From: Acidobacteriota bacterium
GTDB lineage: Bacteria > Actinomycetota > Acidimicrobiia > Acidimicrobiales > RAAP-2
DNA: 52,582 nt
NCBI GenBank assembly: GCA_018971385.1
Contig: JAGXAY010000006.1
Location: 1-52,582 of the forward strand
Direction of reading: 5' to 3'
Below the pieces are notes generated by a model that was not told the origin of the DNA, made no database searches, and was given only the letters and a program-made list of their open reading frames with translations. Made by a program: the position numbers and the translations under genes. Below, piece by piece: positions 48,752 to 52,582 of the stretch. Position 1 is the first letter of the stretch. Each line of letters begins with the position of its first letter.

Positions 48752-49381
48752 TTCCGTCTCGAAAGCGCCAGCGGTTTTCTCGACCCGACCTCACCACGAC
48801 GTGACTCATCCCCGGAGATTTTTCTGATCAAGGGCTCCGCTCTCAGAATCCTCCTACAGGCGAGCGCGAGCATTGTGGAACAGGCGACCCCGAGTCGTTC
48901 TCGTGGAGGACCTCGCGTCATTCTCGCTGATAAGTAGTCCGACGTGTTCGAATGTGAGGTGAGGAGATGAAGGCGAACTGGTGGAGACGTCTGGAACAAC
49001 GATGGGGGGGGTTACGCTCGGGATGCCGTGATGGGCCCCACAACCCACGAGCGCCTCAGTGGGACTTCCGCGAATTAGTTGTGACCAGGTTCTCTAGACG
49101 CCTGTGAGAGGCGTGGGCCCCTTCATTTGGAACATTAATCAGTCCCAATTAGGACGGCCCACTCTGCCGAAACGGAAACGTGGACTCCTGATTTGTTCAT
49201 GGTGTCCCCTTTGTCGCTTCCGCGGGACAAGTCTGCTATCGCCACATTGTGTACCTCTGGTGATGCGCGGCAGCGACGCGCTCCCGCTTAAGCCCTGCGT
49301 AAAAGTATTGGCGAGGATGTTCCACGGCGTGAGGTTCGCTGAATCCGTGCCGAGACGGGTTGAGGGGGTACGGTGTGCCGA
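48752..49381. other. Long gene-poor junction between the leucine operon and the A+T-shifted island
   Basis: Over 600 bases without a well-supported gene. Composition becomes less G+C rich along it. It holds one small possible reading frame (48967-49107), a GTCC-CAATTA-GGAC dyad near 49142-49155, two separate GGGCCCC copies near 49034 and 49117, and at its end the TACGGT hexamer that precedes the MccF-like gene. It looks like degenerate sequence at the edge of an acquired segment. Confidence 0.5.
48967..49107 (+). CDS. Possible 46-residue basic small protein
   Basis: An ATG preceded by GGTGAGGAG opens a 46-codon frame rich in Arg and Trp (MKANWWRRLEQRWGG at the start) ending at a TGA. I recognise no family. 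The Shine-Dalgarno-like sequence is the only support beyond an open frame, and the region otherwise looks degenerate, so this may be spurious. Confidence 0.2.
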   Translation: MKANWWRRLEQRWGGLRSGCRDGPHNPRAPQWDFRELVVTRFSRRL

Positions 49382-50434
49382 ATGAGTGACACTTCTCGTC
49401 TGCACACGCCTCCCAAACTCCAAGCCGGGGACCACGTTGCGGTGGTCTCACCATCATGGGCCGGCGCTGGAGTCTTCCCGCGTGTGCACGACATTGGCGT
49501 GGGAGTTCTGCGGGATGCTTTCGGACTTGTGCCGGTTGAGTTCGCAACTACTCGTCAAGTAGGTGCGAGCCCCGAGGAGCGCGCACGAGACTTGAATGTA
49601 GCTTTTGCGGATCCAAAAATTAAGGCACTTGTGGCCGTCATTGGCGGCTCAGACCAACTTGCGGTGCTCCCACATCTTGATGCCGACACAATTGCCGCCA
49701 ACCCGAAAGCGTTCTTCGGCTATTCGGACAACACCAACCTGCTGAACTACTTATGGAACCTCGGTGTTGTGGGCTACCACGGTGGATCCACCTTGGTACA
49801 TCTTGCCCGTCCCGGAGGCGTCCACCCCGTGTTTCTTACGTCTCTCCGCCATGCTCTCTTTGATAGTGAAACGGTAGAAATTGAGCCCGTGTCGGAGTTC
49901 ACCGATCTGCAGCCGGACTGGGATGACCCGTCGACCCTCGTGACTCCGCTGACAACGACCAACGAGACAGGTTGGCATTGGCACAACGCAACACGAGTTG
50001 TGACTGGGAGAACCTGGGGAGGAAACCTCGAAGTTCTTCACTGGAACCTTGCGGCGAATCGCTGGATCAAGCCGAACGAGGTGTACCGCGACTGCGTGCT
50101 CATTCTTGAAACTTCAGAAGAGATGCCGTCATCGGAGGAAGTGTTTCAGATGTTGCGCAACTTTGGTGAACGTGGACTACTCGCACAATTTCCAGCGGTA
50201 GTGTTCGCAAAGGCCAAAGCTTGGAGTACTCAAAATCCCCTAGATGAGGTGGAGCGCTCTGCGTTCCGCGCGGCACAGGAACTTGCAGTGCTCCAAGCAT
50301 TCAAAATTTATAACCCAGCTGCGATGATTGTGTATGGCCCCGATTTCGGTCACACGGATCCCCAGTACGTTCTTCCTTACGGTGGACTGATGACAATCGA
50401 CGGAATATCTCAAAAGATCACTGTGCAGTATTAG
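49382..50434 (+). CDS. S66-family peptidase, MccF / LD-carboxypeptidase-like
   Basis: 350 residues. The nucleophile Ser is in FFGYSDNTNLLNYLW, the catalytic Glu in TWGGNLEVLHWNL and the His in GPDFGHTDPQYVLPYGG. The N-terminal GDHVAVVSPSWAGAGVFP is typical. The family includes MccF, which cleaves microcin C and related aminoacyl-adenylate toxins, and LD-carboxypeptidases that trim peptidoglycan; the GYSD and Gly-Gly-Asn-Leu motifs fit the MccF side. I prefer the ATG at 49382, which lies 7 bases after a TACGGT hexamer; a GTG at 49373 with GAGGGGG upstream is an alternative. Codons such as ATT, GCA, ACA and AAA are commoner than in genes before 48.7 kb, suggesting transfer. Confidence 0.85.
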   Translation: MSDTSRLHTPPKLQAGDHVAVVSPSWAGAGVFPRVHDIGVGVLRDAFGLVPVEFATTRQVGASPEERARDLNVAFADPKIKALVAVIGGSDQLAVLPHLDADTIAANPKAFFGYSDNTNLLNYLWNLGVVGYHGGSTLVHLARPGGVHPVFLTSLRHALFDSETVEIEPVSEFTDLQPDWDDPSTLVTPLTTTNETGWHWHNATRVVTGRTWGGNLEVLHWNLAANRWIKPNEVYRDCVLILETSEEMPSSEEVFQMLRNFGERGLLAQFPAVVFAKAKAWSTQNPLDEVERSAFRAAQELAVLQAFKIYNPAAMIVYGPDFGHTDPQYVLPYGGLMTIDGISQKITVQY

Positions 50435-50591
50435 AGATCATCAAGTTGGGTCGCGAAAAGGACCGAGTGGAGATCTCCCCTTCAGACTGCTGTCCTACTT
50501 GGTTTAAGAGCGTGGTTGAATTCTTCTGTTCGAGGCCTGGAGTCGTCAAACTGCGCGCCGAACTATCCGCAAAGTCCCGCGCGGAAGTCCC

Positions 50592-50636
50592 GCCCTCGTA
50601 GCTCAGGGGATAGAGCATCGGTTTCCTAATCCGAGG
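50592..50636 (+). pseudogene. 5' fragment of a tRNA-Arg(CCU) gene, 3' part missing
   Basis: The first 45 nt fit a tRNA: acceptor 5' strand GCCCTCG, linker TA, D arm GCTC-AGGGGATA-GAGC, and anticodon arm TCGGT-TTCCTAA-TCCGA with anticodon CCT (one T-T mismatch closing the loop). After CCGAGG there is no T arm (no GGTTCGAATCC-like block) and no acceptor 3' strand CGAGGGC within the following bases. The gene is therefore broken and should not give a functional tRNA. tRNA genes are common integration sites, so this may be a decayed island boundary. Confidence 0.75.
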
Positions 50637-50841
50637 ATTGATGTGGCAAAGACTGAGAAGCGGTGGAAAATGGGGCTTTTCGCTCGCCATAAATGGCTCA
50701 CCGAGCAATCGCGTTGCAGAATTTTGGAGCAACATTGGAGCAAATCGAAGGGGTGTTTGAGGCCCTTTCGAGTCCTGATTACCATCGAAGGAATTGGATG
50801 GGCACATGGCGTCACGCGGAGGTCGCAGCGGCAATGCTCGT
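50637..50841. other. Region between the tRNA fragment and abiEii
   Basis: No recognised gene. A frame from 50693 (MAHRAIALQNFGATLEQ onward) is open across this stretch on the plus strand, but it lacks a ribosome-binding site and runs on antisense to the toxin gene, so I do not call it. The short near-repeats TTGGAGCAAC and TTGGAGCAAA occur 10 bp apart (about 50722-50741). It could be a remnant of an integrative element. Confidence 0.4.
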
Positions 50842-51630
50842 TCAGCTCGAAAAGAGTCCAGCCGTACGCAGGTGCCGACGAACCACACGCACCACGGTGT
50901 CGAATTGCGGTGGCTCGGCAAGATGATCGGACATCTCTCGGCCCCATCGGTCTTTGTAACGAATGATGCGATCAGCGAATTTGTCGGCGAACGTCGCAGG
51001 ATCCAGACCTTTTGCTTCCGCTTTCTTCTCGAACAGCAGGCGTACTTCATCGAGAGACACGCCCATGTCTTCGACAAGTCTAAAGATGTCGTACAGATCT
51101 CGACATTGCACGCGCTGGATCAGGCAGCGCAGCTACTCGGCCGTAATCTCGTCGAGGGAGTAGACAGCGAACGGTACAGCCTCTGGGAGATCCGACCACA
51201 CGCGGTCGAGAATTGTGCGCTGCTCGACCGCGGCTACAACCTCGGAGTCAGAGATATCTAACTTAACAAGACGCGGCTTGCGAGCCTCCAACGGCCCGCC
51301 GTAGGCAATTCGATTTCCCGCATCAGTGAGTTCGAGAACTGGGAGACCCGCGTGGTCGCGTGCGAAATCCAACACCTCGGTCGTTGAGTCAGTTGCTGCG
51401 CCGGCACTTGTACCGATGATGGTGAAGTCCAGGTCCGCTGAGTAGCGGTAGTCATTGATGTGCACCAGACGAAGGGCCGTTCCGCCCTTGAAGACGAGTT
51501 GTCCGCCATCGCTTGGCTTTGCTCGGTGGAGTTGAGCGACGATGTGAGCAAGGACGTAGTCTCGTTCAGCAATCAACGCGTCAACGCCATCGTCGTCGGC
51601 CCGACGCGTGATCGCAAACCGGGTCAGCAT
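50842..51630 (-). pseudogene. abiEii: AbiEii-type nucleotidyltransferase toxin interrupted by an amber codon
   Basis: 262-codon frame starting 2 bp after the antitoxin stop, with GGGGA before the ATG. The nucleotidyltransferase core is intact: VFKGGTALRL (48-50 = KGG) and YRYSADLDFT (D66, D68). At codon 166 (51133-51135) a TAG stops the frame after SLDEITAE. The same frame then continues without any shift as LRCLIQRVQCRDLYDIFRLVEDMGV, the normal family continuation (usually EKLR...RDLYD), to a stop at 50842. The lost residue is most likely Lys (AAG to TAG). The toxin (abortive infection, type IV TA) is probably inactive unless the codon is read through or is an assembly error. Confidence 0.85.
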
Positions 51631-51632
51631 CG

Positions 51633-52418
51633 CTAGTTCCCCACGACCGCTTGTAACTCGTCGATTGTCATATTCCATGCCACCCGAAACCGTGAGTCCG
51701 TCCACGCGACCCGATCATCTCTTGGATCCAACCGGATCACCTGTTGCCGCTTACTTACTGCTGGTGCAAGTGTCAGTGGCAAATGGAGAGCTGTTGCAAT
51801 CGAGGCGAGACGTCGTTCTGCAGCCACGCCGCGTGCGCCGAAGTTCTTCGCTAGGTGCGCGATGCGCACTGAATCCGCATCTCGTGATCCAGAAGCGACA
51901 GCGTCGCCAAGACGTTCCGCTCCTCCGATGAGGTCCACACGAAGAGCGCATTCAAACAATGCTCGCTCCAGCGACGATCGCCACGAGTTCTTGACAACTT
52001 CGGCATCTAAGTGAATTGTCTCTGGTTTCTCCACCACGAGACGAAGAGGTCTGCGACTGACGGCGGTAAACCGAACTCTTTCGGTGCATGCGACGTAGAT
52101 CGTCCGGACCGGATGACTCAGCACTCCAAGTTCGCTCAAGGCACTCAGGTAGGCAATTCGGTGCTCTCGGCCTTCGAACGCGGCTCTGACGGCACTGCCG
52201 AGATCCTGCGTTACCAAAGAGGTACCCAGCGCACCTAATGGTCGGATCGCGTAATGACCTCGTGCGAGCTTGTCCACCAGACCCTTCTTGCTGAGCCGTG
52301 CCAGGAAGTTCGCTGTCGCTTCAGTGGAAACCTTGAGACGGGCCCTGGCCTCCTCGAACGTGAACTCGTCTCGGCCCTCTGACAGCAGGGTGTCGATGAA
52401 TTCGAGTTGACGGGCCAT
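51633..52418 (-). CDS. abiEi: AbiEi-type antitoxin / transcriptional autorepressor
   Basis: 261 residues. An N-terminal winged-helix domain (about 1-60: FEEARARLKVSTEATANFLARLSKKGLVDKLARGHYAI) and a larger C-terminal domain matching the AbiEi_4-type antitoxins. In the AbiE system AbiEi represses its own operon by binding inverted repeats through the winged helix and neutralises the AbiEii toxin without forming a stable complex. AGGAGG lies 5 bases before the ATG of MARQLE; the frame is open 12 codons further. Two inverted repeats upstream fit autoregulation. The coding sequence is intact, unlike the toxin gene that follows. Confidence 0.87.
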   Translation of the reverse strand: MARQLEFIDTLLSEGRDEFTFEEARARLKVSTEATANFLARLSKKGLVDKLARGHYAIRPLGALGTSLVTQDLGSAVRAAFEGREHRIAYLSALSELGVLSHPVRTIYVACTERVRFTAVSRRPLRLVVEKPETIHLDAEVVKNSWRSSLERALFECALRVDLIGGAERLGDAVASGSRDADSVRIAHLAKNFGARGVAAERRLASIATALHLPLTLAPAVSKRQQVIRLDPRDDRVAWTDSRFRVAWNMTIDELQAVVGN

Positions 52419-52443
52419 CCGGACCTCCTGCGAGTCAGTACAG

Positions 52444-52472
52444 CAGTAACTCACTTAAAACGTTAGTTACTG
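52444..52472. promoter_or_regulatory. Inverted repeat 1 (probable AbiEi operator), proximal
   Basis: CAGTAACTCAC (52444-52454) and GTTAGTTACTG (52462-52472) form arms matching at 10 of 11 positions around a 7-base A+T-rich centre, 26 bp before the antitoxin start. The half-site AACTCAC is shared with repeat 2. A TAACAT hexamer (minus strand, 52475-52480) next to it may be the -10 box. Confidence 0.65.
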
Positions 52473-52493
52473 AGATGTTAGCCAACAAACTTA

Positions 52494-52516
52494 TAACTCA
52501 CGTAAAACGTGAGTTA
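52494..52516. promoter_or_regulatory. Inverted repeat 2 (probable AbiEi operator), distal
   Basis: TAACTCACG (52494-52502) and CGTGAGTTA (52508-52516) are perfect 9-bp arms with a TAAAA spacer. Its centre lies 47 bp from that of repeat 1. The paired arrangement is like the two operator repeats described for AbiEi autoregulation. The repeat would cover the upstream part of the promoter. Confidence 0.65.
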
Positions 52517-52544
52517 CTGTACTTGTACAAAAACTCCATTTGGA

Positions 52545-52574
52545 TAGGGTATTGCGGAATCTTAAGTAGGGTAT
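52545..52574. repeat. Direct repeat TAGGGTAT, period 22
   Basis: TAGGGTAT occurs at 52545-52552 and 52567-52574, upstream of the abiE promoter region at the window edge. On the minus strand each reads ATACCCTA. Significance unknown; the short length means chance is possible. Confidence 0.4.
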
Positions 52575-52582
52575 GTCAGAAA

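Follow-up and report, generated by a model that had tools for sequence, protein, structure and literature searches.

Near the end of contig JAGXAY010000006.1 from an Acidimicrobiales genome (GenBank assembly GCA_018971385.1, deposited as Acidobacteriota bacterium), a tRNA-Arg(CCU) gene stops halfway. This contig, referred to here as the window, is analysed in its entirety (C168, 52,582 bases) and belongs to a 2.1-Mb metagenome-assembled genome (MAG) in 221 contigs. We conclude that the half gene, which begins at 50592 on the forward strand, is very probably the left, attL-type junction of an integrative element that recombined inside the anticodon loop of the host tRNA-Arg(CCU) by means of a tyrosine integrase. 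The window itself contains a native-type upstream flank, the 5' half, a left arm with repeats, and AbiE genes. Relatives from the same genus contain both element ends, a rebuilt tRNA gene, empty sites, tandem arrays and, in some cases, adjacent integrases, and it is on sequence comparison with these relatives that the junction reading is built.

The first-pass annotation of this DNA had described 45 nt of tRNA, with a full anticodon arm, at an island boundary. The half gene and its start are real: congeners share the 5' sequence with identities up to 98-100%, a resemblance far beyond chance. However, the tRNA part is shorter than proposed, comprising nt 1-38 and ending with the anticodon-loop octamer TTTCCTAA. 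After this octamer the listed intact genes of the genus read ACCGTG, whereas the window reads TCCGAGGATT (TCCGAGG), so that its nucleotide 39 is a T that mispairs with T31. The stub resembles a full anticodon arm because TCCGA on the 3' side of the octamer mirrors TCGG on its 5' side, but with T31 and T39 unpaired this arm is a look-alike. The same TCCGA is found in 13 of the 15 other aligned halves, and by this comparison it is the start of the element arm, the tRNA being already over. ARAGORN called zero tRNAs in the window, and an Rfam scan of it returned no family at the gathering threshold. As the annotation had stated, the T arm and 3' acceptor strand are gone, and the searches it recommended for the missing half and for an intact gene found neither in the assembly. 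With a 3'-half pattern (at most 3 mismatches) the sole match in the window and its assembly was a tRNA-Arg(CCG). None of the 48 tRNA matches in the assembly was Arg(CCU); 47 were named by ARAGORN, and the remaining one, which a contig end truncates, reads GGT on visual inspection.

We searched 99 genomes of the genus with a 32-base piece of the 5' half, allowing 1 mismatch. This piece matched 68 genomes, the window's own included, and was without a match in the other 31, with 0 matches for a reversed-pattern control. In the regions fetched from around these matches, a motif search recovered 100 sites, some of them duplicates in which two contig ends show a single site (L089/L090 and L209/L210 have upstream bases in common, and L216/L217 look alike). 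The sites comprise 62 intact genes, 3 that are intact up to the end of their contig, 31 halves, and 4 that end at or within a few bases of the octamer; L090, L155 and L156, intact genes with a contig-end cut or an N, were counted as intact. The break falls directly after TTTCCTAA or TTTCTTAA in 30 of the 31 halves, a pattern centred on the anticodon, and NCCGA comes right after the octamer in 25 of them. The crossover would lie within the octamer, nt 31-38. In G110, one half (L218) retains ten more bases of the tRNA than the rest do. Beyond the octamer, 15 other halves from 13 other genomes continue with sequence related to that of the window for about 110 bases, up to and including a repeat pair. 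The exact 29-base junction was present on 12 MAG contigs, labelled Acidimicrobiaceae (6), Actinomycetes (2), and Acidobacteria or Acidobacteriota (4, probably mislabelled); the same 29-base pattern gave 0 matches among viral contigs. We assign the window's genus to Acidimicrobiaceae.

Occupied and empty forms of the site also appear to be represented in the genus. Sites were typed by motif rules that differed between analyses, so the typed numbers vary a little, and the totals for halves and for integrase adjacency stem from different rules. Upstream of the 31 halves we found a native flank in 15, a type I right arm in 7, and untyped sequence in 9, one of which had too little DNA for typing. 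Upstream of the 65 genes counted as intact lie a native flank (17), a type I arm (11), a type II arm (11), untyped sequence (18), or too little DNA to tell (8). Upstream of the halves L083 and L170 and of the intact genes L147, L188, L196, L197 and L202, at a distance of 121-151 bp, lies a gene for a relative of one 113-aa protein, and 85 upstream bases are identical in L194 (intact) and L200 (half), which come from different genomes. We read these cases as probable occupied and empty forms of one place. Other arrangements are less simple. In G099 (L204, 7994-9700), two halves lie 1.7 kb apart around a Fic-like gene, both with native-type flanks, and in G070 (L173-L176) separate contigs contain three halves and an intact gene, all four with a native flank. 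Simple tandem insertion does not account for these two cases, for which mixed strains or recombination are possible explanations.

Several relatives carry a half and a complete gene on one contig. The G005 contig contains, in order, a native flank, a half, 2.1 kb with a HipA gene, and an intact tRNA. The G008 contig contains a native flank, a half, 2.8 kb, a second half, 4.2 kb with a tyrosine integrase, and an intact tRNA. The 2.8-kb interval encodes an ArsR-type regulator, an SBF-family transporter spread over two frames, and a low-molecular-weight phosphatase domain, cargo that may have an arsenic-related role. In G055, a 5.3-kb element consists of a half, then RepSA and integrase genes, then a 5' half severed by the contig end. 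The rebuilt genes lie downstream of the halves, so the right end of each element must supply nt 1-38. The 5' half was evidently exchanged in G008, where the native half starts GCTCCCG and the rebuilt gene GCCCTCG. Across the genus, three common 5' acceptor strands are found with an almost constant 3' strand, and all seven acceptor pairs form (7/7) in 60 of the 61 parsed intact genes, L155 being left unparsed in this count.

The left arms of 27 of the 31 halves fall into three types with repeats at fixed offsets: type II (15, the window included), type I (11) and type III (1). In the window the direct-repeat pair TTGGAGCAA matched 1 time, against 0 matches in 100 shuffles, and we take it as a pair of putative arm-type integrase sites. 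Counting from the first base of the octamer, the type II repeats lie at +102/+113 in type II halves (103/114 in L170) and the type I repeats at +139/+150, each pair 11 bp apart. The same repeats precede rebuilt tRNAs, at about -62/-51 from tRNA nt 1 for type I (some at -53/-42) and at -29/-18 for type II, with several type II right ends having only one recognisable repeat. Within 260 bp of a site we found 19 of 27 type II and 30 of 36 type I repeat pairs, an area of about 52 of 943 kb; because the motifs derive from these very sites, this clustering is a partly circular check of specificity.

Together, these observations are consistent with the following model. A tyrosine integrase would recombine the element into the octamer, nt 31-38, of the host tRNA-Arg(CCU). 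The host promoter and nt 1-38 would remain on the left as a stub, the right end of the element would bring a replacement upstream region with its own nt 1-38, and this replacement 5' half would join the host's original 3' half to form a complete tRNA gene on the far side. The recombination itself is reconstructed in every genome, and so, for the window, are the right end, the rebuilt tRNA and the acting integrase; the right end and rebuilt tRNA would lie beyond the end of the contig. The island boundary of the first-pass annotation is supported, as is its suggestion that an integrated element displaced the 3' half, here, by analogy with relatives, to the element's far side. Its view that a 5' fragment implies a deletion or an imprecise excision is not borne out: the relatives point to precise integration with a polarity that is the reverse of the usual one, so neither event is needed.

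Integrases are found beside some of these sites. An integrase gene lies within 400 bp on the 5' side in 5 of 12 type II/III sites, 4 of 20 type I sites, 0 of 33 native-flank sites and 0 of 35 untyped sites, as measured with a profile built from integrases of this set, which unrelated integrases may escape. All five integrases at least 57% identical to that of G055 (itself included) adjoin tRNA-Arg(CCU), and the next, at 47%, is at no known site; for the type I integrase, the best three matches, itself included, also adjoin this tRNA. We found a tyrosine integrase in the second interval of G008 and in G055, and none in the G005 interval, the first interval of G008, or the 1.95 kb of the element visible in the window. 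RepSA, identified above the Pfam cut-off and below that of NCBIfam, lies beside the integrase in G055, between the two 5' halves, and in G006, with type II or III arms. In G050 (L156, contig C62), Int, RepSA and a contig-end-cut FtsK/SpoIIIE gene lie beside tRNA-Arg(CCU), with the left end off the contig and an arm typed as II/III only by a laxer rule. RepSA relatives occur in 31 of the 99 genomes, the window's not among them. Two further arrangements were seen. An integrase lies 1.36 kb upstream of L160, an intact gene with the native flank, and L087 (G022) and L158 (G054) have one from another group some 290-360 bp 3' of the same tRNA-Arg(CCU). As G022 has integrases on both sides, the tRNA seems to be targeted from both halves.

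Features of the window, with the evidence for each (+, forward strand; -, reverse strand)
Feature	Position	Strand	Evidence
LD-carboxypeptidase (peptidase S66) gene	49373..50434	+	Pfam S66 domains; taken as chromosomal
Native-type upstream flank (promoter region) of tRNA-Arg(CCU)	50532..50591	+	Alignment of 35 flanks from intact and half sites
tRNA-Arg(CCU) 5' half, nt 1-38	50592..50629	+	Comparison with congeners and intact genes of the genus
Octamer TTTCCTAA, nt 31-38, putative crossover segment	50622-50629	+	End of the half
Visible part of the putative integrated element	50630..52582	+	Contig ends at 52582
Element left arm, type II	50630..50748	+	BLAST from flank through half to 50748: G008, 77% over 172 bases; G005, 72% over 170
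Direct-repeat pair TTGGAGCAA, 11 bp apart	50724..50743	+	Pattern match in window
AbiEii nucleotidyltransferase gene, broken	50842..51705	-	Pfam AbiEii; parts 50842-51111 and 51133-51705
AbiEi-type antitoxin/regulator gene	51633..52454	-	Pfam AbiEi_4, E 7.3e-8

The visible cargo of the window's element is an AbiE gene pair. The longer AbiEii part matched Pfam with E 4.5e-16 and the shorter with E 1.7e-4 (22.1 bits, cut-off 22.5). An AbiE type IV toxin-antitoxin system consists of adjacent, intact abiEi and abiEii, and here abiEii is interrupted. AbiE genes also occur near like sites in G007 (by Pfam), G100 and G101. The stop in the G100 copy (L205, 1-1040) lies elsewhere in AbiEii than in the window, so a gene of this kind was broken on two separate occasions. 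The half tRNA is also crossed by antisense open frames (50418-51077 and 50603-50947, minus strand), one of which reads RKPMLYPLSYEG; if annotated as proteins, they are likely spurious. The native upstream region (for example in L147 and L197, and at 50549-50591 of the window) consists of CGCGGA-type repeats about 12 bp apart, seen by eye. On the left, S66 relatives occur in 8 of 40 other genomes, all within the same genus. We rejected S66 as a conserved neighbour of tRNA-Arg(CCU), as it had no match (E <= 1e-10) in the fetched tRNA-site regions. Between 49500 and 50999, G+C drops from about 0.65 to 0.53-0.54 already ahead of the boundary, and the S66 gene, too, may therefore have arrived recently.

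A number of observations weigh against an integrated element with both ends in place, some of them in the window. Its flank has GAGGCC (50532-50537) at the position of what we take to be the -10 box, where the other 34 of the 35 aligned flanks have TAGGCT, TAGGAT or TAGTCT. One in-frame stop separates the two parts of the AbiEii gene, and because of this break and the degenerate box the element may be an old or immobile remnant. The last 120 bases of the window match no contig other than the window itself, and the right end and rebuilt tRNA are absent from the assembly. Searches of its genome with the type I integrase (E <= 1e-8), the type II integrase (E <= 1e-30) and RepSA (E <= 1e-15) gave no match. 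The S66 gene, the window's left neighbour, was not near tRNA-Arg(CCU) in the regions examined. Others concern the relatives: the upstream region of 18 of the 65 intact genes could not be typed by the rules used, 23 of 32 typed right ends are without an integrase within 400 bp, the type II right ends of the G005 interval and the first G008 interval have a single recognisable repeat, and two of the six intervals that lie whole on a single contig, those of G099 (with a native-looking right end) and G110, are without matching arms. Some of the right ends without an integrase have little upstream DNA, and the others may be passengers or decayed.

The main rival explanation draws on several of these points. 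On this account the element inserted as we propose, and a later deletion or imprecise excision removed the right end, so that the left junction stands alone with the cargo. The degenerate promoter box, the broken AbiEii gene, the lack of integrase and RepSA relatives in the assembly at the thresholds used, and the lack of an intact tRNA-Arg(CCU) or its 3' half would all fit such a relic. However, the contig merely stops 1.95 kb into the element, other assemblies stop at this repeated tRNA too (L084, L096, L172, L210), and both G005 and the first interval of G008 have an element with two ends and no integrase. We therefore regard a relic as improbable. Decay of the promoter box is not a general mark of stubs, an idea we rejected because among the 35 flanks only that of the window is degenerate. 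We also rejected a junction between tandem elements as the source of the window's upstream flank, because the same flank type precedes 17 intact genes and no type II repeat pair lies upstream.

Two other explanations were considered. An assembly chimera near 50637, fusing the tRNA to unrelated DNA, had been raised by the first-pass annotation and could be imagined for a contig from so fragmented a MAG. It is very unlikely: the 15 other halves have a junction of this kind too, with some 110 bases of arm and the repeats at a matching offset, and the exact 29-base junction is on 12 MAG contigs. A split or intron-bearing tRNA, whose 3' half is joined at the RNA level, for example through a group I intron in the anticodon loop, would explain the position of the break, as tRNA introns sit in the anticodon loop. 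Yet no 3' half is present in the window or assembly, and the relatives have an intact gene downstream; a group I intron or other RNA element was rejected for want of an Rfam match at the gathering threshold. We give this explanation almost no credence, and we retain integration within the anticodon loop.

Small tRNA-anchored elements with varied cargo are familiar from the tycheposons of marine bacteria. Among the titles and abstract openings we searched, nothing concerned tRNA-Arg(CCU) islands of Acidimicrobiaceae, which is no proof of their absence from the literature. Islands that leave a 5' tDNA fragment make up 159 of the 3919 recorded by Islander (PMC4383910). In the parts of that report consulted, such islands have the displaced fragment upstream and the rebuilt tDNA downstream in the same orientation, an anticodon-centred crossover, tandem arrays and, in some, a tyrosine integrase (PMC4383910), all of which recur among the relatives in this genus. 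In those same parts, this 5'-fragment end is a recorded minority pattern, and the window's element would fit this known kind. Of the fragment and the intact tDNA, the window has the fragment and its assembly lacks the partner, whereas both are found in G005, G008 and G055 (where the downstream gene is cut by the contig end). Compared with the Islander cases as far as those parts describe them, one tRNA is here used repeatedly in one genus, with two unlike integrase groups alongside, and at least two complete intervals lack an integrase.

Another point of comparison is the actinomycete integrative and conjugative element (AICE). According to the sections consulted of a 2011 survey (PMC3218068), AICEs are found mostly at tRNA 3' ends, and none was found in Acidimicrobidae; in the elements described here it is the 5' half that appears to be replaced. 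Elements of the pSAM2 type (PMC3218068, same sections) resemble G055 and G006 in having Int and RepSA, and G050 in having Int, RepSA and FtsK/SpoIIIE. An AICE excises, replicates by rolling circle and moves by conjugal transfer. The core of an AICE is Int, RepSA and an FtsK/SpoIIIE Tra protein within att boundaries, and none of these core genes is in the visible part of the window's element, which is not fileable as an AICE; the common feature is the type of attachment site only. The AICE-like core of G050 occurs in a group for which those sections list none (PMC3218068). In the tRNA-dependent lysogeny of actinobacteriophages (PMC10865867, in part), a short common core likewise lies within a tRNA gene and the broken tRNA is made good, but there a whole phage tRNA substitutes for that of the host, whereas here the element would give a 5' half.

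It is possible, if rather doubtful, that an AICE-like lineage of Acidimicrobiaceae includes the window's element and exploits the 5' half of tRNA-Arg(CCU) in place of the 3' half, with residents that control this tRNA and could make their own loss costly. If so, the lineage would combine Int, RepSA and sometimes FtsK with small integrase-free passengers. Each insertion would swap the putative promoter and nt 1-38 of what is perhaps the sole AGG-specific tRNA, so that elements resident in tandem would control its expression and, once stacked, could make their own loss costly. More generally, a rule of thumb is corrected: a 5' tRNA fragment that borders an island can mark a precise left end, and damage is not a necessary conclusion. 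The 5' half, the octamer, the usual NCCGA and two repeats 11 bp apart provide a recurrent marker with which small islands in the poorly cultured Acidimicrobiaceae can be located and their limits set. They also point to a naturally occurring case of an element that appears to substitute its own sequence for the predicted promoter and the 5' half of a tRNA gene.
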